From contig NZ_SMLG01000008.1 of NCBI RefSeq assembly GCF_004349195.1, positions 1-64,000 on the forward strand: a stretch of 64,000 nt of DNA. The letters are read 5' to 3'. The notes beneath the pieces are model-generated. The model worked only from the letters and a program-made list of their open reading frames with translations, ran no database searches and was not told the DNA's origin. Each line of letters begins with the position of its first letter. The first letter of the stretch is position 1. This DNA comes from Flavobacterium rhamnosiphilum (GTDB taxonomy: Bacteria > Bacteroidota > Bacteroidia > Flavobacteriales > Flavobacteriaceae). Shown piece after piece: positions 43,366 to 51,355 of this stretch. The position numbers and the translations under genes are program-made.

Positions 43366-44388
43366 ATGGCAGAAGAAACAAATGAGGTAACGATTATTGA
43401 AACCGATTTACTCAATGAGTTATCACAATTGGTGGAGCAAAGCCAGCAACAAGTTATTGTTCAAAACAACAGTGTTTTAACGTTGCTTTTTTGGCAAATT
43501 GGTTTTCGCATCAATGAAACAGTACTCCAAAACAAACGTGCTGAATACGGAAAACAAATTGTGCCGACACTGTCGGCACAATTGGAAAACAAATACGGAA
43601 GAAACTTTACTGAAAAAAATGTGAGACGAATGCTTCGTTTTGCAGAACAATTTATAGACAAGCAAATTGTCGTAACACTGTCACGACAATTGAGTTGGTC
43701 ACACTTCATAGAATTATTACCCATAAAAAACCCGGAAGCCAAATTGTTCTATGCACACCAGGTGAGTAATCAGTTAATGAGCGTTAGGGATTTGCGAAAA
43801 CAAATTGCAACCAAAACTTTTGAACGTGCCGCAATAGCAAACGTTCAAACAAATCCATCGGAACATAAGCTACAATACACCTTCAAAGACCCTTATTTAT
43901 TAGATTTCCTTAATCTAGGAAATGCCTATTTAGAAAAAGATTTGGAACAGGCAATATTATACGAATTAGAAAAATTCATTCTCGAACTCGGCAAAGGCTT
44001 TACGTTTGTGGAACGCCAAAAACGGATGATTATAGATGGCGAAGATTTCAATTTAGATTTGCTTTTTTACCATCGAAAACTGAAAAGATTAGTGGCCATA
44101 GAACTAAAATTGGGTAAATTCCAAGCCAAACATAAAGGCCAAATGGAATTATACCTCAAATGGCTGGACAAATACGAAAAGCAAGAAGGCGAAAACACTC
44201 CAATAGGCTTAATCCTTTGTGCCGAAAGCAGCAGGGAACAAATAGAGTTACTCGAAATGCACAAAGACGGAATAATGGTGGCCGAATATTGGACAGATTT
44301 ACCACCAAAAAAGCAGTTTGAAGAAAAAATACACTTGCTTTTAACCGAAGCTAGAGAAAGAATAGAGAGAAAAAAACTGTTAAAGTAA
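43366..44388 (+). CDS. DUF1016/YhcG-family PD-(D/E)XK nuclease
   Basis: A 340-residue protein with two domains. The N-terminal DUF1016_N part has the pattern GKQIVPTLSAQLENKYGRNF and LSWSHFIELLPI. The C-terminal PD-(D/E)XK nuclease has the aspartate in FNLDLLFYHRKL and the ExK in AIELKLGKF. This family is often found in defence islands and near restriction genes; its role is not settled. Two palindromes lie inside the coding sequence. It stands upstream of the type I R-M operon. Confidence 0.9.
   Translation: MAEETNEVTIIETDLLNELSQLVEQSQQQVIVQNNSVLTLLFWQIGFRINETVLQNKRAEYGKQIVPTLSAQLENKYGRNFTEKNVRRMLRFAEQFIDKQIVVTLSRQLSWSHFIELLPIKNPEAKLFYAHQVSNQLMSVRDLRKQIATKTFERAAIANVQTNPSEHKLQYTFKDPYLLDFLNLGNAYLEKDLEQAILYELEKFILELGKGFTFVERQKRMIIDGEDFNLDLLFYHRKLKRLVAIELKLGKFQAKHKGQMELYLKWLDKYEKQEGENTPIGLILCAESSREQIELLEMHKDGIMVAEYWTDLPPKKQFEEKIHLLLTEARERIERKKLLK
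43557..43692. repeat. Two related palindromes inside the DUF1016 gene
   Basis: A perfect 27 bp palindrome at 43557-43583 (13 bp arms, AATTGTGCCGACA, centre C) and an imperfect one at 43665-43691 (arms beginning AATTGTCGT) share the centre ACACTGT. They encode KQIVPTLSAQL and KQIVVTLSRQL, so the same peptide pattern appears twice. Confidence 0.7.
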
Positions 44389-44580: not shown

Positions 44581-46150
44581 ATGTCAGAAGAACAAAAGCG
44601 ACTTTTAGAAGCCCAACTTTGGGGAATTGCAAATCTTTTAAGAAATAAAATTAGTCCAGATGACTATCGGGATTATATTCTAGGTTTTATCTTTTTCAAA
44701 TATCTTATCGGAGAAACAAAATTTATATGCGAACCAACTTCTAGTAGGAGAAGAAATCACTGAATTTACTAAAGTAACTGATAAAGAAACTCTAGCGGCT
44801 ATTAAAGAAGAATCACTATTAAAACTTGGATATTTTCTTGAACCTTCTCAATTATTTTCTGTTATTACTGCTAAGGGTAATGCAAATACTGAAACGGACA
44901 GTAATTATATTTTAGAAGACTTACAATCAGTACTTAATCATATTGAATTAAGTACAATGGGTACAGAATCTGAAGAGGATTTTAATGCCCTATTTGAAGA
45001 TTTAGATTTAAATTCAACCAAAATTGGACGTTCAGTAAGTGCTCGAAACGAAATAATTGTTCAAATATTAAACTATTTGGATAAAATTGATTTCAAATTA
45101 GAGGAAATTGATGCCGATGTGTTGGGTGACGCTTATGAATTTTTGATTGGTAAATTTGCGGCAGGAGCTGGTAAATCGGCCGGTGAATTTTATACACCAC
45201 AACAAGTTTCAAAAATACTTTCAAAAATTGTTACTACCGGTAAAACAAAGATAAAATCTGCTTATGATCCAACATGTGGCTCCGGTTCGTTATTGCTTCG
45301 AATCACAAAGGAAGCCGAAGTAAGCGAATTTTATGGTCAAGAATTAAACCGTACCACATTCAATTTAGCGAGAATGAATATGTTGTTGCACAACGTACAT
45401 TTCAGAGAGTTTAATATCAAACAGGAGGATACTTTAGAGCACCCACAACACTTAGACAAAAGATTTGAGGCTATCGTCGCAAATCCGCCATTTTCGGCAC
45501 ATTGGAGAAGTGATGCTAATCCATTGAACAGTACTGACGAACGTTTTAGTCAATTTGGTAGAATTGCCCCTAGAACAAAAGCAGATTATGCTTTTTTACA
45601 ACACATGTTATACCAGTTGGCAGACAATGGTATCTTAGCTAGTGTTTTTCCTCACGGTGTATTATTTCGTGGAGCTGCCGAGGGTGAAATTAGAAAATAT
45701 CTGATTAAAGAACTAAATGTTTTAGATGCAGTAATCGGCTTGCCAGCAAATATATTTTATGGCACTTCAATACCTACATGCATTCTGGTACTCAAAAAAT
45801 GTCGTCAAGCTAATGATAATGTAATATTTATTGATGCTAGTGGAGAAGGAAACTTTAAAAAAGAAGGCAATCAAAACATTTTGGAAGATAAAGATGTGGA
45901 AAGAATTGTAAACGCATACAGAAACAGAGAGGAACAAGAGCGTTACAGCCATATAGCAACTTTAGCCGAAATAACAGAGAATGATTATAATCTTAACATT
46001 CCTCGTTATATAGATAGATTTGTTGAAGAGAACACAATTAGTTTAGAGGAAGTTACAACTGCTATAAAGCAAACAAGAAATGAATTGGCTGGAGTTTATG
46101 AAGACATTGCTAATTATTGTCATGAGTTAAATATTCCAACACCTTTCTAA
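44581..46150 (+). pseudogene. hsdM: Type I R-M methyltransferase subunit, frameshifted
   Basis: The start (60 residues, 44581-44763) and the rest (from about 44708 to 46150) are in different frames. Removing one base near 44707 joins them to about 522 residues, the normal HsdM length, with FFKYL leading into SEKQNLYANQ. The SAM motif is AYDPTCGSGSLLLRI and the catalytic motif VANPPFSAHW. HsdM modifies adenines with HsdS and is needed for restriction. The shift is not in a homopolymer. It may be a real mutation, a switch or a sequencing error. Confidence 0.85.
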
Positions 46151-46153
46151 ATT

Positions 46154-47314
46154 ATGACAAACGAAACTGTAGTTCCTCAATTGAGATTTCCGGAGTATAA
46201 TAATGAATGGTGTACTAAAAGTATTTCCGAAGTATTAAAAATTGGAAGTGGTTCCGATTACAAGCATTTAAGTCAAGGAAATGTTCCTGTTTTTGGAACT
46301 GGAGGAATAATGACTTATGTTAATGATTTTTTATATGATGGAGAAACTGTGTGTATTGGAAGGAAAGGGACAATAGATAAACCAGTATATTTTAATGGTA
46401 AAATTTGGACTGTAGACACTTTGTTTTATACTCATTCATTTAATGGATTAATTCCTAAATTCGCTTACTGTCTTTTCCAGAAGATTAATTGGAAAAGGTA
46501 TAGTGAAGCCTCGGGTGTTCCTAGTCTTTCTAAGAACACTATTGAAAAGATAGAGATTGTTTTACCGTCTCTACCTGAACAAGAAAAAATTGCATCATTT
46601 TTATTCTCCATTGACAAACAAATACACCTTTTAGAAAAAGAAAAAGCACTATTAGAAAAATTTAAGAAAGGTGTTTTTCAAAAAATATTCAATCAGGAAA
46701 TCAGATTTAAAGATGATAATGGAAATGATTTTCCAGCTTGGGAAGAGAAAAAATTAGGTGATATTGGAGTCAATTATAATGGGCTTACAGGGAAATCAAA
46801 AGAAGATTTTGGAAGCGGTAAACCTTACGTTCAGTATAAACAAATTTTTGATCAATCTAAAATTGATGTTTTGAAGTTTCAATATGTTAATGTTCTTGAA
46901 AATGAAAATCAAAATACGGTAGAATATGGGGATATTCTATTTACTACATCATCTGAAACACCAAATGAAATAGGAACATCATCAGTTATGCTTGACAAAA
47001 TTGAAGATTTATATTTAAACAGTTTTGGTTTTAGACCTAATTCATTAGAGGTTTTAGTTCCAGAATTTTCAAGGTTTTATTTTCAGAGTCATAAAATAAG
47101 AACTGAAATAATTAAACTGGCTCAAGGAAGTATTAGATATAATTTATCCAAAACAGAATTTTTGAAATTAAGTATTAGTTTACCTTCTAAAGATGAACAA
47201 TCAAAAATTGGTAAATACCTAAGTCAAATTGAAACAACCATTGATAAAAAAGTAATAGAAATAGAAAACACTTATTTATTCAAAAAAAGTCTACTTCAAA
47301 AAATGTTTGTTTAA
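46154..47314 (+). CDS. hsdS: Type I R-M specificity subunit
   Basis: A 386-residue HsdS with two target-recognition domains. The first starts NNEWCTKSISEVLKIGSG; the first conserved coiled coil is LPEQEKIASFLFSIDKQI; the second domain starts FPAWEEKKLGDIGVNYNG and ends with LPSKDEQSKIGKYLSQIET. It sets the DNA sequence recognised by both methylation and cleavage. It begins three bases after hsdM and ends one base before the next gene. No inverted repeats or silent hsdS copies are seen. Confidence 0.94.
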   Translation: MTNETVVPQLRFPEYNNEWCTKSISEVLKIGSGSDYKHLSQGNVPVFGTGGIMTYVNDFLYDGETVCIGRKGTIDKPVYFNGKIWTVDTLFYTHSFNGLIPKFAYCLFQKINWKRYSEASGVPSLSKNTIEKIEIVLPSLPEQEKIASFLFSIDKQIHLLEKEKALLEKFKKGVFQKIFNQEIRFKDDNGNDFPAWEEKKLGDIGVNYNGLTGKSKEDFGSGKPYVQYKQIFDQSKIDVLKFQYVNVLENENQNTVEYGDILFTTSSETPNEIGTSSVMLDKIEDLYLNSFGFRPNSLEVLVPEFSRFYFQSHKIRTEIIKLAQGSIRYNLSKTEFLKLSISLPSKDEQSKIGKYLSQIETTIDKKVIEIENTYLFKKSLLQKMFV

Positions 47315-47315
47315 C

Positions 47316-48506
47316 ATGGAACTGACTAAACAAGCAATACAAAAACATAAGCAAGCCATTGATGGCTTAGATGGGTATATCATAATTGCTTCTGAAATTG
47401 AAGACAATGTAACTTTAAATCCTGACATTGCAATTGAAGCATGTAAATCACTAATTGAAGGTCTTTGTAAAAAAGCTCTTGAATTATTAAGTGATGAATA
47501 TAAAACAACAAAAAGTGTTCGTAAGAATTGTGACAATAATTTGCCCTTTTTAGTAAAGCAAGCATTTGAAAATATTTATCGAAATAAATTTGAAATTGAT
47601 ATTCACAATGCATTATATAAAATTATAAGAAGTAAAGTTAAAATTGATAAATTCATCAATACTAGTGCTGAAATTATTTTTGAAAATACAAAAGAAGCAA
47701 TACTAAAAATCTCAGTCATTAGGGATAATCGAGGAGATATATGTCATGGTAGAATCTATCCTAAGAAGGACGAAAGCGAGGTGCATTTAGCAAAATCAAT
47801 AGCTTCGATAACGGATGGTATTTGTTCATTTATGATAAATGAATTTTCTTCACAATATATTGTTTTTGAAGTTTCTAATAAAAAATTAATTTATGATGAC
47901 CTTATTAGTTTTAATGAGTGGTTAGATAATAAACATAATGTTTTATCAGTCAAAATCGATTTTAGTAATCTACTATATAAAAATGCATATGATAAGTATG
48001 AAGAATATTATTACTCAGAAGAATATTTAGAAATTTTAGAAAATGAAATAGAAGAAGTTGTAACTGAAGAAAAAATAATTGAAAGCATTACTGAGTCATC
48101 AAAGAATGAAGTCATTCCCGAAATTGGTCTTTCAGAACAAATTCTTAAAGCACAACAAGAGATTCCTCAACTAACCGAAGAGCAGTCTAAAAAATTATAC
48201 GAGGTGACTTTTGGTAGAAAAGAAGAAGTCAAACCAATAGTTCAATTAATAAATACGTTTGATGAGAAAACGTTTTGGACAGAAAAAAGAATTCAAGATT
48301 TAAATCAATTTGCAGATGTTAATTCATTTTATGTAGTTGGTTTGAAAAAAATCATCGAAGATTATATTGCTTTTAATGATGAACCTTTAAGAGATAATAT
48401 AGGCAAAATTATGAAACATCCGCCATCATTAGCGGATAGGAGAACTGCTTTATTAGTTATGCTTGAAATAGTTATGGATTTCGCTAATGAATTAAAAGAA
48501 AAGTAA
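47316..48506 (+). CDS. Abi/HEPN-type protein embedded in the R-M operon
   Basis: A 396-residue protein between hsdS and hsdR. The N-terminal 180 residues resemble the abortive-infection C-terminal (Abi_C, HEPN-like) domain: EACKSLIEGLCKKALELL and IRDNRGDICHGRIYP with an RX4H motif (Arg139, His144). The middle is acidic and coiled. The last 60 residues (IIEDYIAFNDEPLRDNIG, then MKHPPSLADRR) resemble the end of HsdR. The ATG at 47316 is preferred to a TTG at 47307. The stop overlaps the hsdR start by one base. An RNase role is inferred. Confidence 0.8.
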   Translation: MELTKQAIQKHKQAIDGLDGYIIIASEIEDNVTLNPDIAIEACKSLIEGLCKKALELLSDEYKTTKSVRKNCDNNLPFLVKQAFENIYRNKFEIDIHNALYKIIRSKVKIDKFINTSAEIIFENTKEAILKISVIRDNRGDICHGRIYPKKDESEVHLAKSIASITDGICSFMINEFSSQYIVFEVSNKKLIYDDLISFNEWLDNKHNVLSVKIDFSNLLYKNAYDKYEEYYYSEEYLEILENEIEEVVTEEKIIESITESSKNEVIPEIGLSEQILKAQQEIPQLTEEQSKKLYEVTFGRKEEVKPIVQLINTFDEKTFWTEKRIQDLNQFADVNSFYVVGLKKIIEDYIAFNDEPLRDNIGKIMKHPPSLADRRTALLVMLEIVMDFANELKEK

Positions 48507-51355
48507 TGACAGCACAACCAGAACAAATATTAGAAAAAAATCTAATTGCTCAGTTAACACGTTTGGGTTATAAAACAGTTGTTATTAAAGACGAAAAGGA
48601 ACTTTTAGAAAATCTAAAAACACAATTAGAAAAGCATAACAAAGTAGCTATTAGTCAACAAGAGTTCAAGCAAATACTAAACCATATCAATAAAGGGAAT
48701 GTATTTGAAAGAGCCAAGATTCTTCGTGACCGAGTTCCTTACACTAACGATTTAGGAGAAAATAAAACCATTGAGTTAATTAATCAAATCCATTGGTGTC
48801 AAAATGAATTTCAAGTTGCACAGCAAATTGAAATGGAAGGCACTTATAAAAATCGATATGATGTTACTATTTTAATCAATGGTTTGCCATTAATCCAAAT
48901 CGAGCTGAAACGAAGAGGTTTAGAATTAAAAGAAGCCTTTAATCAAACCAACAGATACGAACGCCACTCTTATGGTGCCGGAAATGGTTTGTTTCAATTC
49001 ATTCAATTATTTGTAATCAGTAATGGAGTAAACACAAAATATTACGCAAACAATGCTTTAAAGTCCCGAACTTTCAAACAAACTTTTTATTGGTCGGATG
49101 ATAAAAACAAGCTCATTACTCAATTAGCAGATTTTACTAATATTTTCCTAGAGCCTTGTCACGTTTCAAAAATGATTACAAAATACATTGTACTCAATGA
49201 AACCGTAAAGGCATTAATGATTTTAAGACCGTATCAATTTTATGCTACAGAAGCCATTATTGAAAAGGTAAAAACAACAACCAAGTTTGGATATATTTGG
49301 CATACTACGGGTTCAGGTAAAACATTAACTTCATTCAAAACGGCGCAAATACTTACCAACCTACCCAATGTACATAAAGTGGTTTTTGTCGTGGACAGAA
49401 AAGATTTAGACTACCAGACTACAAAAGAATTTAATGGTTTCAGTAAGGGAAGTATTGACGGAACTAACAATACTGAGGCACTAGTAAAACAATTAGCCGG
49501 TGATAATAAACTTATAGTGACCACCATACAAAAACTGAATACTGCTATTTCTAAAGCAAAGTATTTAGGAAAAATGGACAAGATAAAAAACGAAAGAGTT
49601 GTTTTTATTTTTGATGAATGTCACAGAAGTCAATTTGGAAAAACGCACGATACCATAAAAAAATTCTTTTCCAATTGTCAGATGTTTGGTTTTACAGGAA
49701 CGCCAATTTTTGATAAAAATGCAGGCTCAAACGAATTTGGAAAACGAACAACCGAAATGTTGTTTGGCGAAATGTTACACAAATATGTCATTACAGATGC
49801 CATTAGAGACGAAAACGTACTTAAATTTTCTATAGAATACATACGAACATTCAAACGCAAAGAGGATATTGTTGATATAAATGTAGAAGCAATAGACGAA
49901 GTTGAAGTAATGAATGCACCAATTCGACTGAACAATATTGCAGATTATATTGTTACAAATCACAACCGTAAAACACATCAAAAAGAGTTTACGGCTATTT
50001 TTTGCGTTTCTAGTGTTGCTTCATTAGTAGAATATTACAAACTGTTTCAACAAAAAAAAGAAGCAGGATTGCACAACCTTAAAATAGCGACAATTTTTTC
50101 ATATCAAACCAATGAAGAAGATTTAGATGCGGTTGGTACTTTTGAAGAAGAAGATTTGATAATAGCTGCCGAACCAAGAGAAGAATATGGCACCAATCAT
50201 TCTAGAGATAATTTAGAAACATTTATTGGACATTATAATCAAATGTTTAGCACCAATTTTACAACAAAGGACACACAATCTTTTTATAATTACTATAATG
50301 ATATTGCAAAACGTGTTAAACAAAAAGAAGTAGATATTTTGTTGGTAGTCAATATGTTTTTAACTGGTTTTGATAGTAAATCACTCAATACCTTGTATGT
50401 AGATAAAAACTTAAAATACCACGGTTTAATTCAAGCATTTTCAAGAACTAACAGAATTTTAAACGAAATCAAATCGCAAGGAAATATTGTTTGTTTTAGA
50501 AACTTAAAACAAGATACTGACGATGCTATTGAACTGTTTTCGAGATTAGAACATAAAAATGAAATTATATTACAACCGTATGAAGATTATGTAACAAAAT
50601 TCAACAGCTCATTTATTACACTAATACAAATAACGCCAACAGTAAATAGCGTTAATAATCTGAAAAGTGAAGAAGATGAAGTAGAATTTATCAAAACATT
50701 TCGGGAGTTAATGCGATTAAGAAATGTTTTAAGCACTTTTACGGAATTTAATTTTGATGATTTGTCAATGACAGAACAACAATTTGAAGATTACAAAAGC
50801 AAGTATTTAGATTTGTATGATAAAACCAAAGGATTTAATCAAATACAAAAAACATCCATTCTGGACGATATTGATTTTGAATTAGAATTGATACATCGTG
50901 ATGAAATTAATGTTACCTACATACTGAAATTGCTAGCAAAATTAAATAACAGCACTTCCGAAGAAATTGAAAAGCAGAAAAAAGCAATCATCGATTTAAT
51001 TTCTGGCGATGTAGAATTAAGAAGTAAACGGGAATTAATTGAAAAATTTATCGAACAAAATTTACCCGTAATTCAAGAAAATGATGATATTCCTGATGAA
51101 TTCAACAAATTCTGGGAGTTAGAAAAAGAAATAGCATTAAATAAAATAACGCTCGAAGAAAATCTAGATGCCAAAAAATTAGAAGAAATAATCGGAAAAT
51201 ATATGTTTACCGAAAAGAAACCTTTGCGAGATGATGTGGTTGGTATGATGAAAACTAAACCAGGATTAAAAGAAAGGGGCATTACAGCTGAAAGAATAAC
51301 TGATAAAATTTACAATTTTGTCAATACTTTTATAAGTGGAATAACTGGTTTTTAG
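48506..51355 (+). CDS. hsdR: Type I R-M restriction subunit
   Basis: A 949-residue HsdR. The PD-(D/E)XK nuclease has YDVTILI and IQIELKRRG (about residues 115-133). The translocase has Walker A HTTGSGKTLTSF, DEAD-like FIFDECHRSQFG, FTGTPIF and the helicase end LIQAFSRTNR. The C-terminal helical domain (EEIIGKYMFTEKKPLRDDVV) docks HsdR onto the methyltransferase. It starts with a one-base overlap to the Abi/HEPN-type gene, so translation is coupled. The subunit looks intact, although hsdM is frameshifted. Confidence 0.95.
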   Translation: MTAQPEQILEKNLIAQLTRLGYKTVVIKDEKELLENLKTQLEKHNKVAISQQEFKQILNHINKGNVFERAKILRDRVPYTNDLGENKTIELINQIHWCQNEFQVAQQIEMEGTYKNRYDVTILINGLPLIQIELKRRGLELKEAFNQTNRYERHSYGAGNGLFQFIQLFVISNGVNTKYYANNALKSRTFKQTFYWSDDKNKLITQLADFTNIFLEPCHVSKMITKYIVLNETVKALMILRPYQFYATEAIIEKVKTTTKFGYIWHTTGSGKTLTSFKTAQILTNLPNVHKVVFVVDRKDLDYQTTKEFNGFSKGSIDGTNNTEALVKQLAGDNKLIVTTIQKLNTAISKAKYLGKMDKIKNERVVFIFDECHRSQFGKTHDTIKKFFSNCQMFGFTGTPIFDKNAGSNEFGKRTTEMLFGEMLHKYVITDAIRDENVLKFSIEYIRTFKRKEDIVDINVEAIDEVEVMNAPIRLNNIADYIVTNHNRKTHQKEFTAIFCVSSVASLVEYYKLFQQKKEAGLHNLKIATIFSYQTNEEDLDAVGTFEEEDLIIAAEPREEYGTNHSRDNLETFIGHYNQMFSTNFTTKDTQSFYNYYNDIAKRVKQKEVDILLVVNMFLTGFDSKSLNTLYVDKNLKYHGLIQAFSRTNRILNEIKSQGNIVCFRNLKQDTDDAIELFSRLEHKNEIILQPYEDYVTKFNSSFITLIQITPTVNSVNNLKSEEDEVEFIKTFRELMRLRNVLSTFTEFNFDDLSMTEQQFEDYKSKYLDLYDKTKGFNQIQKTSILDDIDFELELIHRDEINVTYILKLLAKLNNSTSEEIEKQKKAIIDLISGDVELRSKRELIEKFIEQNLPVIQENDDIPDEFNKFWELEKEIALNKITLEENLDAKKLEEIIGKYMFTEKKPLRDDVVGMMKTKPGLKERGITAERITDKIYNFVNTFISGITGF

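Follow-up and report, generated by a model that had tools for sequence, protein, structure and literature searches.

A gene between hsdS and hsdR in a type IC-like restriction-modification (R-M) operon of Flavobacterium rhamnosiphilum encodes a HEPN/Abi_C-like body joined by a linker to a C-terminal tail which, judged from profile comparisons, is homologous to the last ~80 residues of the HsdR C-terminal domain (Pfam PF12008 EcoR124_C; PDB 6h2j, 3evy). While in HsdR this domain is joined to the motor and the nuclease, it is here separate from both and joined to an effector. Mimicking HsdR, the tail might dock a HEPN ribonuclease on the M2S core as a PrrC-like guardian that is released when restriction fails, a reading which we regard as evenly balanced between right and wrong.

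Organization of the operon

The window, that is, the whole analysed stretch of 64,000 nucleotides of contig NZ_SMLG01000008.1 (assembly GCF_004349195.1), contains the operon in the gene order hsdM-hsdS-effector-hsdR, with all features described here on the + strand. Membership in type IC is indicated by the joint finding of hsdM, hsdS and an EcoR124-type HsdR, with the hsdM frame broken in the window copy. In hsdM (44581..46150; N6_Mtase E=3e-104 in Pfam), the frame is broken after about codon 42, the main open frame with a start codon covering 44957-46150; by tblastn, residues 1-42 of an Algoriphagus HsdM match in one frame (83% identity) and residues 38-522 in another (79%). If this break is real, the complex of this copy may not form. 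The gene of the specificity subunit, hsdS (46154..47314; Methylase_S E=5e-34 in Pfam, Specificity_I E=7e-88 in PADLOC), is followed by the tailed effector gene (47316..48506; 396 aa) and by hsdR (48506..51355), coding for a type IC-like motor/nuclease subunit of 949 aa (EcoR124_C E=2e-68, HSDR_N E=2e-40) that matches EcoR124 HsdR at E=4e-177 in phmmer. The original prediction of an effector gene between hsdS and hsdR that overlaps the latter by one base was borne out, with base 48506 common to both genes and their coordinates, 47316-48506 and 48506-51355, correct; the same position between hsdS and hsdR was observed in all eight tailed loci.

Relationship of the effector tail to HsdR

The HsdR-type tail of the effector comprises residues 315-396 (48258..48503), and its counterpart is the C-terminal tail of HsdR, residues 862-949 (51089..51352). 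An alignment of only the last 60 residues with the end of HsdR had been proposed; the homology holds, while its extent is longer, with about 72-80 residues. The window effector shares 26% identity over 72 residues with its own HsdR (E=1e-4, a single pairwise comparison), and the Smith-Waterman score of 72 compares with a shuffled mean of 36.6 (SD 5.0, maximum 62), none of 500 shuffles scoring as high. In four loci, the effector versus the HsdR of the same operon gave scores of 148-167 versus shuffled means of 37-39. Profile-profile comparison of the C-termini, suggested at the outset as a check, was equally positive, with E=1.1e-24 between six effector tails and 57 HsdR-type tails, and the window tail alone matched the HsdR-tail profile at E=9e-12, whereby the E-values of the tail profile comparisons, here and below, are those of single comparisons. 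The contig fragments L132 and L077 were left out of the tail sets, and the 2534-aa open reading frame (ORF) of locus L131 is counted among their 57 and 59 HsdR-type tails.

In Pfam, the EcoR124_C cut-off of 23.1 bits was exceeded by two effectors, L001 (29.7) and L002 (29.6); the window protein gave no EcoR124_C match at E ≤ 1, and for L003, L153, L154, L010 and L074 the family was not listed at the limits used. The HsdR-tail profile aligned to residues 950-1032 of a 1038-aa EcoR124-family HsdR (E=6e-6, probability 86%). The tail of the EcoR124-family HsdR matched the effector tails weakly (E=0.007, probability 6%), so that any transfer of contact data from E. coli is indirect. AlphaFold2 models, built from four sequences each, predicted a helical effector with a mean pLDDT of only 42.3 and, for the last 264 residues of HsdR, reached a mean pLDDT of 56.0, with most of the tail scoring under 50 in either model; the HsdR model had clear matches in Foldseek and VIA-align (3evy and EcoR124 HsdR entries) at model residues 3-113 only, before the tail. 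As both models are poor, no structural claim is made.

Distribution of tailed effectors and the hsdS-hsdR slot

Eight loci with a tailed effector were found, each in the slot between hsdS and hsdR, six with a HEPN and two with an FRG body; L153 has an additional gene that separates the effector from hsdR. Because their ORF coordinates agree, L001 and L075 appear to be a single locus and were counted once. L002 derives from a MAG and is a near relative of L001 and L003, so that the eight loci do not amount to eight independent events. The FRG bodies (L010 and L074; PF08867 E=6e-19 and 1e-16) are unrelated to the HEPN body, and the two FRG proteins, which remain colinear, tail included, with 40% identity, match PADLOC PDC-S15. 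Between the operons of L001, from Algoriphagus hitonicola, with a HEPN and of L074 with an FRG effector, HsdM is 90% and HsdR 89% identical, an exchange of cargo on one operon backbone.

That the tail is a by-product of a fusion with the 3' end of hsdR, with no docking role today, and that the effector is an ordinary embedded cargo working alone, is a rather unlikely explanation, for which the nature of the slot nevertheless speaks. The slot accepts cargo generally, with an ORF of at least 100 aa in 29 of 41 loci that were not chosen for an effector; Fic, RhuM, Abi_2, Abi_C, PDDEXK_4, SduA and RT are among the cargo families. The HEPN body also occurs without a tail in the slot (L011, L095) and directly before hsdR (L118), which indicates that the body can do its work at this position, whatever that is, without a tail. 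Equally, foreign sequence joined to an hsdR end does exist, as in L160 with a GIY-YIG domain and L162 with a signal-peptide-like start before the tail. On the other hand, only eight of 68 slot ORFs carry the tail (E ≤ 4.3e-9), all of them found earlier by the tail, and it is present in none of the other 60 (best E=0.017), a count that leaves out four loci lacking a full-length HsdR (L155, L077, L158, L159) and nine in which no upstream hsdS was recognised.

Occurrence of the tail far from R-M operons, which had been named as evidence against the original prediction, was encountered only for HsdR-like scraps, L160 and L162 among others, with no hsd genes within the 8-9.5 kb around the tail match, and none of these scraps includes a HEPN or FRG body. 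Another 19 tail matches, not counting the tailed effectors, fall into short open frames; most of the 17 examined (all except G858 and G809) look like hsdR fragments or remnants, while L080, L081 and L163 were not placed as fragments. A search of viral contigs retrieved no relatives of the whole effector gene. Among plasmids, the whole effector retrieved one record matching residues 21-226 only, and the tail retrieved seven, namely four annotated HsdR proteins and, as identified by ORF calling, two full-length HsdR ORFs of Persicobacter and one hsdR fragment of Thioclava.

Evolution of the tail

Further evidence against a mere by-product of fusion comes from the tail itself. Seven of the eight effector tails, HEPN and FRG together, separate from the HsdR tails (branch support 100/99), the FRG tail of L010 being placed among HEPN tails, so that one tail grouping spans several genera and two effectors of unrelated kind; the AU test (p=0.43) neither establishes nor rejects one common origin for all eight. 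Conserved effector-tail residues include W321 and P370 (8/8 each) and P357 (7/8), and the residues A390 and L393 (7/8 each) are effector-specific. In the tail, dN is below dS, with dN/dS values of 0.13/0.55 (L001-L003), 0.13/0.47 (L001-L002) and 0.22/0.79 (L002-L003). Recent copying of the tail from the neighbouring hsdR was considered and rejected, as the own HsdR ranks 1, 4, 7, 10, 17 and 32 of 57 at 25-42% identity. The window tail belongs to the most diverged ones: the HsdR of its own operon comes 32nd of the 57 HsdR-type tails, at 25% identity.

The HEPN/Abi_C-like body and the linker

The body (residues 1-233; 47316..48014) is 49-55% identical to those of L001, L002, L003 and L153 over 233 residues and is followed by a charged, poorly conserved linker (residues 234-314; 48015..48257), the identity to five tailed HEPN relatives amounting to 22-30% in the linker, 31-55% in the body and 31-41% in the tail. 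The predicted HEPN-type motif with Arg139 and His144 is present as RGDICH at residues 139-144 (47730..47747) and recurs as RGDI[SC]H in all nine family members compared, including the window protein. Directly following the motif arginine, all nine have glycine, the typical N, D or H being absent. Among Pfam families, Abi_C, which we take to be a member of the HEPN clan, matches window residues 102-174 with 16.7 bits, below the cut-off of 24; L001 (19.4), L002 (18.9) and L003 (20.1) likewise stay below it, and L153 and L154 match no Pfam family at E ≤ 0.01. The tailless relatives L011 (32.1 bits), L095 (29.6) and L118 (28.3) are above the cut-off; as no tailed HEPN protein passes it, the HEPN assignment is based on the motif and these tailless relatives. 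Rx4-6H is described as the HEPN RNase site, with N, D or H right after the arginine typical, though not universal (Anantharaman et al. 2013, PMC3710099). Weak matches of L153 to LeoA (21.7 bits) and of L154 to MakE (16.8 of 360 bits) were taken as noise.

Alternatively, the effector might mainly be a regulator of restriction, the tail occupying an HsdR site and keeping the enzyme in a non-cleaving R1 state, with a HEPN body that is structural and not an RNase. EcoR124I is reported to possess two HsdR sites of very unequal affinity, the first HsdR binding far more strongly than the second, and cleavage is reported for the R2 complex only, R1M2S1 being non-cleaving (PMC2878639); the position of the effector gene just before hsdR with its one-base overlap would also suit such a role. 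A regulator is nevertheless quite unlikely, given the Rx4H motif kept in 9/9 bodies, and the replacement of the HEPN body by an enzyme-like FRG body argues that the bodies are effectors.

Relation to known systems and proposed mechanism

Going by the gene names prrA-D, prrC is located between the S and R genes of its operon. A query with an E. coli type IC operon gave no record with the name PrrC among the best 60 of 1,808, and PF13166 had no match in the F. rhamnosiphilum genome itself at E ≤ 0.001. PrrC is described as a latent ribonuclease with a HEPN-type nuclease domain, encoded within the type IC operon of EcoprrI (prrABCD) and associated with and silenced by EcoprrI (PMC2610378, PMC3874165, PMC3710099), and the window effector is likewise embedded and HEPN-like. 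According to its description, PrrC begins with an ABC-ATPase domain and has the nuclease in its final third, whereas the window protein has an HsdR-type tail and no ABC/AAA family at E ≤ 1 in Pfam. The embedded slot and links between HEPN and R-M genes are already published: at least 16 HEPN clades are linked to R-M systems and predicted to be PrrC-like, with fusions to R-M nucleases and helicases noted (PMC3710099), and defence genes are embedded between hsdS and hsdR, as here, in the DarTG2/RptR island (PMC12255303) and the PADLOC PDC candidates. In the parts of these sources consulted, no physical tag from cargo to R-M complex is described, the term 'hsdr' occurring 0 times in the main text on the HEPN/R-M genes (PMC3710099), and a docking tail common to effectors and HsdR was not found in the literature searched.

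According to the reading of a docked PrrC-like guardian, the effector would be a HEPN-family endoribonuclease that carries, behind a flexible linker, its own version of the C-terminal docking domain of HsdR; through this domain it would occupy one of the HsdR sites on the HsdM2-HsdS core. Once docked, the effector would be kept silent, and its presence may in addition restrict formation of the R2 complex that cleaves. If the complex were displaced or altered, either by an anti-restriction protein of a phage or because the enzyme is exhausted, the RNase would be freed or clustered and would cut cellular RNA, providing a back-up defence comparable to that of PrrC with EcoprrI. That the tail anchors the effector to DNA, or to HsdR itself, instead of to HsdM2S is distinctly improbable, even with the DNA-binding role that the paper behind PDB 6h2j reportedly assigns to the EcoR124 C-terminal domain. 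Although translocation, cleavage and ATPase activity are influenced by the helical domain as well (PMC5248579), the literature consulted names as its partner the HsdM/HsdS core, which it is 'believed' or 'proposed' to bind (PMC2878639, PMC5248579).

In the docking scheme, the tail would act as a portable tag, as relatives carry an effector with an FRG domain (ART superfamily) on the same kind of tail; the presence of a different defence enzyme with this tail in related bacteria suggests a reusable plug that attaches 'last resort' effectors to restriction machines. More tentatively, and with more doubt than belief on our side, type I complexes may use an exchangeable docking tag to hold interchangeable effectors in an HsdR site, a HEPN RNase or an FRG ART-family enzyme and perhaps others, which would be released for cell suicide once anti-restriction factors of a phage remove or block HsdR; the restriction enzyme would thereby double as a sensor platform.

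Implications

The hold of an R-M system on an embedded toxin such as PrrC is known functionally, while the parts of the literature searched do not explain how it works physically. A common docking tail, if true, would define an interface that can be tested directly, would allow further such effectors to be recognised by sequence, and would supply a natural tag for attaching proteins to the HsdM2S core. Type I restriction enzymes would then be modular platforms with swappable abortive-infection effectors.

An HsdR-type tail on a protein embedded in a type IC-like operon

The type IC-like operon consists of hsdM (44581-46150), hsdS (46154-47314), the gene of a 396-residue protein, here called the effector (47316-48506), and hsdR (48506-51355). 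The frame of hsdM breaks after approximately codon 42 (44581-44957), Algoriphagus HsdM matching the two frames at 83% and 79% identity, and the break is either real or an assembly error. The effector combines a HEPN/Abi_C-like body, a charged linker and the tail; its body carries the Rx4H-type motif that the original prediction had claimed, RGDICH at residues 139-144, and RGDI[SC]H is present in all nine HEPN bodies compared. The Abi_C match in Pfam (residues 102-174) is sub-threshold with 16.7 bits versus a cut-off of 24, and NCBIfam and PADLOC gave no match at E <= 1. Upstream of hsdM, at 43366-44388, lies a YhcG/DUF1016 PD-(D/E)XK nuclease gene matching the PADLOC candidate PDC-S02. A second type IC-like locus of this genome (contig C11, L093) holds ORFs of 168 and 222 aa between hsdS and hsdR, the interval termed the slot below.

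That the effector shares a C-terminal segment with HsdR, as had been predicted, was borne out by BLASTP (72 residues aligned at 26% identity, E=1e-4 in a single comparison), and none of 500 shuffles of the effector tail scored as high (maximum 62 versus 72 for the real tail). Three whole-gene relatives with 41-42% identity were found in the genome_contigs collection, in Algoriphagus hitonicola (L001), a Saprospiraceae MAG (L002) and Cyclobacterium xiamenense (L003), all three sited between hsdS and hsdR, with tails 38-42% identical to their own HsdR (scores of 153-167 versus shuffled means of 37-39); the cut-off of the Pfam HsdR C-terminal domain EcoR124_C (23.1 bits) is passed by L001 (29.7) and L002 (29.6), but not by L003. 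Profile-profile comparison (hhalign, E-values of single comparisons) likewise upheld the homology, aligning six effector tails with 57 HsdR-type tails at E=1.1e-24, the HEPN tails alone at 5e-23, the FRG tails described below alone at 1e-18 and the window tail alone at 9e-12. The end of one EcoR124-family HsdR matches Bacteroidota HsdR tails at E=6e-6 (prob 86%); the bridge to the EcoR124 structures is indirect, as the same end aligns with the effector tails only weakly, at E=0.007 (prob 6%). Ala390 and Leu393 occur in seven of the eight effector tails, where HsdR-type tails have Val (54/59) and Phe (56/59), a conserved difference that could reflect an altered interface.

Two unrelated bodies carry the tail

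When 395 genomes from the window's order were searched with the whole protein, five gave matches, the own genome included: a protein of 580 aa, encoded between hsdS and hsdR, that matched by its tail alone (G017, L010), with an FRG domain as body (PF08867, E=6e-19); a HEPN protein without tail (G186, L011); a match in a frame of 969 aa, about as long as HsdR (G138); and a weak match to the body region with stops (G125). In overlapping genome samples, with counts that are therefore not additive, tail profile A1 matched 29 genomes out of 395 from the phylum and 32 out of 291 from another order, the majority in HsdR-length open frames, and tail profile A4 matched 36 of 245 genomes of the family of G1013 and 47 of 397 of the window's family. 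New tailed effectors were L074 from A1 (G989; FRG, E=1e-16) and the HEPN proteins L153 (G1288) and L154 (G1252) from A4; the A1 match in G1013 appears identical in locus to L001. This brings the tailed loci to eight, six with HEPN (window, L001, L002, L003, L153, L154) and two with FRG bodies (L010, L074), FRG being a second cargo unrelated to the HEPN body. In L153, the tailed HEPN gene is separated from hsdR by a gene for a pentapeptide-repeat protein (L153:6993-8204; PF13576, E=2e-18); repeats of this type mimic DNA in certain anti-restriction proteins. Both FRG proteins match the PADLOC candidate PDC-S15, and they share 40% identity across almost their full length, tail included; FRG is assigned to the ART superfamily and has been proposed to be a possible NADase (PMC9503650).

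Among the nine HEPN family members, six possess linker and tail, while the three tailless proteins (L011, L095, L118; 208-213 aa) end where the linker would start. Against the five HEPN relatives that have a tail, the window protein shows 31-55% identity for the body, 22-30% for the linker and 31-41% for the tail. Nei-Gojobori dN/dS values for L001-L003 were 0.02/0.72 (body), 0.09/0.17 (linker) and 0.13/0.55 (tail), with tail values of 0.13/0.47 and 0.22/0.79 in the other two close pairs; the window-L001 pair was saturated. With dN below dS, the tail seems to experience purifying selection, though less strongly than the body does. A tree built from 67 tails (8 effector, 59 HsdR-type), with just 81 columns and long branches, puts seven of the eight effector tails on one side of a branch (support 100/99) and pairs FRG L010 with HEPN L153 (96/81), and the L074 tail is too diverged for placement; a single clade of all eight was not rejected (AU p=0.43). 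As L001 and L074 have HsdM 90% and HsdR 89% identical and effector bodies from different families, cargo was swapped on one operon backbone.

The hsdS-hsdR slot as a cargo site

Fifty neighbourhoods of HsdR-type tails, chosen blind to effectors (L082-L131; two from some genomes), were surveyed with nine chosen loci (window, L001, L002, L003, L010, L011, L074, L153, L154). An HsdR-like ORF of >850 aa was present in 59 surveyed loci, with hsdS upstream in 50, and 38 of these 50 held at least one same-strand ORF of at least 100 aa in the slot; once the chosen loci were removed, the slot was occupied in 29 of 41 Bacteroidota type IC-like operons. One of the HsdR-like ORFs is a 2534-aa frame (L131:716-8320) with SNF2/ResIII/helicase and DUF6908 domains, a tail-profile match at E=1e-14 and a sub-threshold Eco57I methylase match, next to ORFs phage-like by eye. 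Twenty slot proteins, including that of L074, and L091 and L118 from loci without recognised hsdS, were scanned against Pfam, which assigned FRG, Fic, RhuM+Fic, Abi_2 (2), Abi_C (2), PDDEXK_4 (2), SduA, RT, GmrSD_N, DnaJ, phage integrase and IS200-like families, with a further PDDEXK_4 match below cut-off in a DUF4268 protein and no Pfam family in four of the 20. Among 68 slot ORFs, called mechanically and some perhaps not genes, eight are tailed, all known effectors (E <= 4.3e-9), and none of the other 60 bears the tail (best E=0.017). With its occupancy and varied families the slot is therefore a general cargo site, and the tail is, in this sample, peculiar to two effector families. Work on E. 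coli DarTG2 has likewise proposed such a cargo role for the slot (PMC12255303).

A guardian docked through HsdR mimicry?

In 2013, HEPN proteins linked to restriction-modification were already suggested to act in the manner of PrrC (PMC3710099), and defence genes lying in the hsdS-hsdR interval are known from published work (PMC12255303). An HsdR-type tail on an embedded effector was not found in the accessible portions of the literature searched, with bioRxiv and most subscription journals outside coverage, and its novelty is claimed within these limits. The RNase PrrC is embedded in a type IC operon, silenced by EcoprrI and freed upon inhibition of EcoprrI by phage T4 Stp (PMC2610378, PMC3874165, PMC12707154); the window effector is likewise embedded in a type IC-like operon, and a guardian role is suggested by analogy.

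Counted against such a role are HEPN relatives that occupy the same slot and lack the tail, the failure of every tailed HEPN protein to reach the Pfam Abi_C cut-off, a Gly directly after the motif Arg, the window's own tail being weakly conserved, the disrupted frame of hsdM and poor predicted structure models. That the tail is a mere fusion relic is a less likely but serious alternative; such fusions do occur, as in L160:6709-7209, a 166-aa ORF in which a GIY-YIG domain is followed by an HsdR tail (EcoR124_C 24.3 bits versus a cut-off of 23.1) with hsd genes absent from the 8 kb examined, possibly a fusion that arose by deletion and would serve as a model for tail capture. A further ORF, of 125 aa (L162:573-950, minus strand), has a signal-peptide-like start (by eye) and an HsdR tail, with hsd genes absent from 9.5 kb.

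Published work describes binding of the HsdM/HsdS core by the C-terminal domain of HsdR as 'believed' or 'proposed' (PMC2878639, PMC5248579), and the first HsdR copy binds far tighter than the second, R1 complexes being reported as non-cleaving (PMC2878639). The low-affinity second HsdR site would be an obvious seat for a tailed effector. Because of the PrrC precedent, the proposed role of the HsdR C-terminal domain and this weak second site, the effector is proposed to be a PrrC-like guardian which would dock through HsdR mimicry, be silenced by the complex and, upon a presumed trigger, may act on a putative RNA target.
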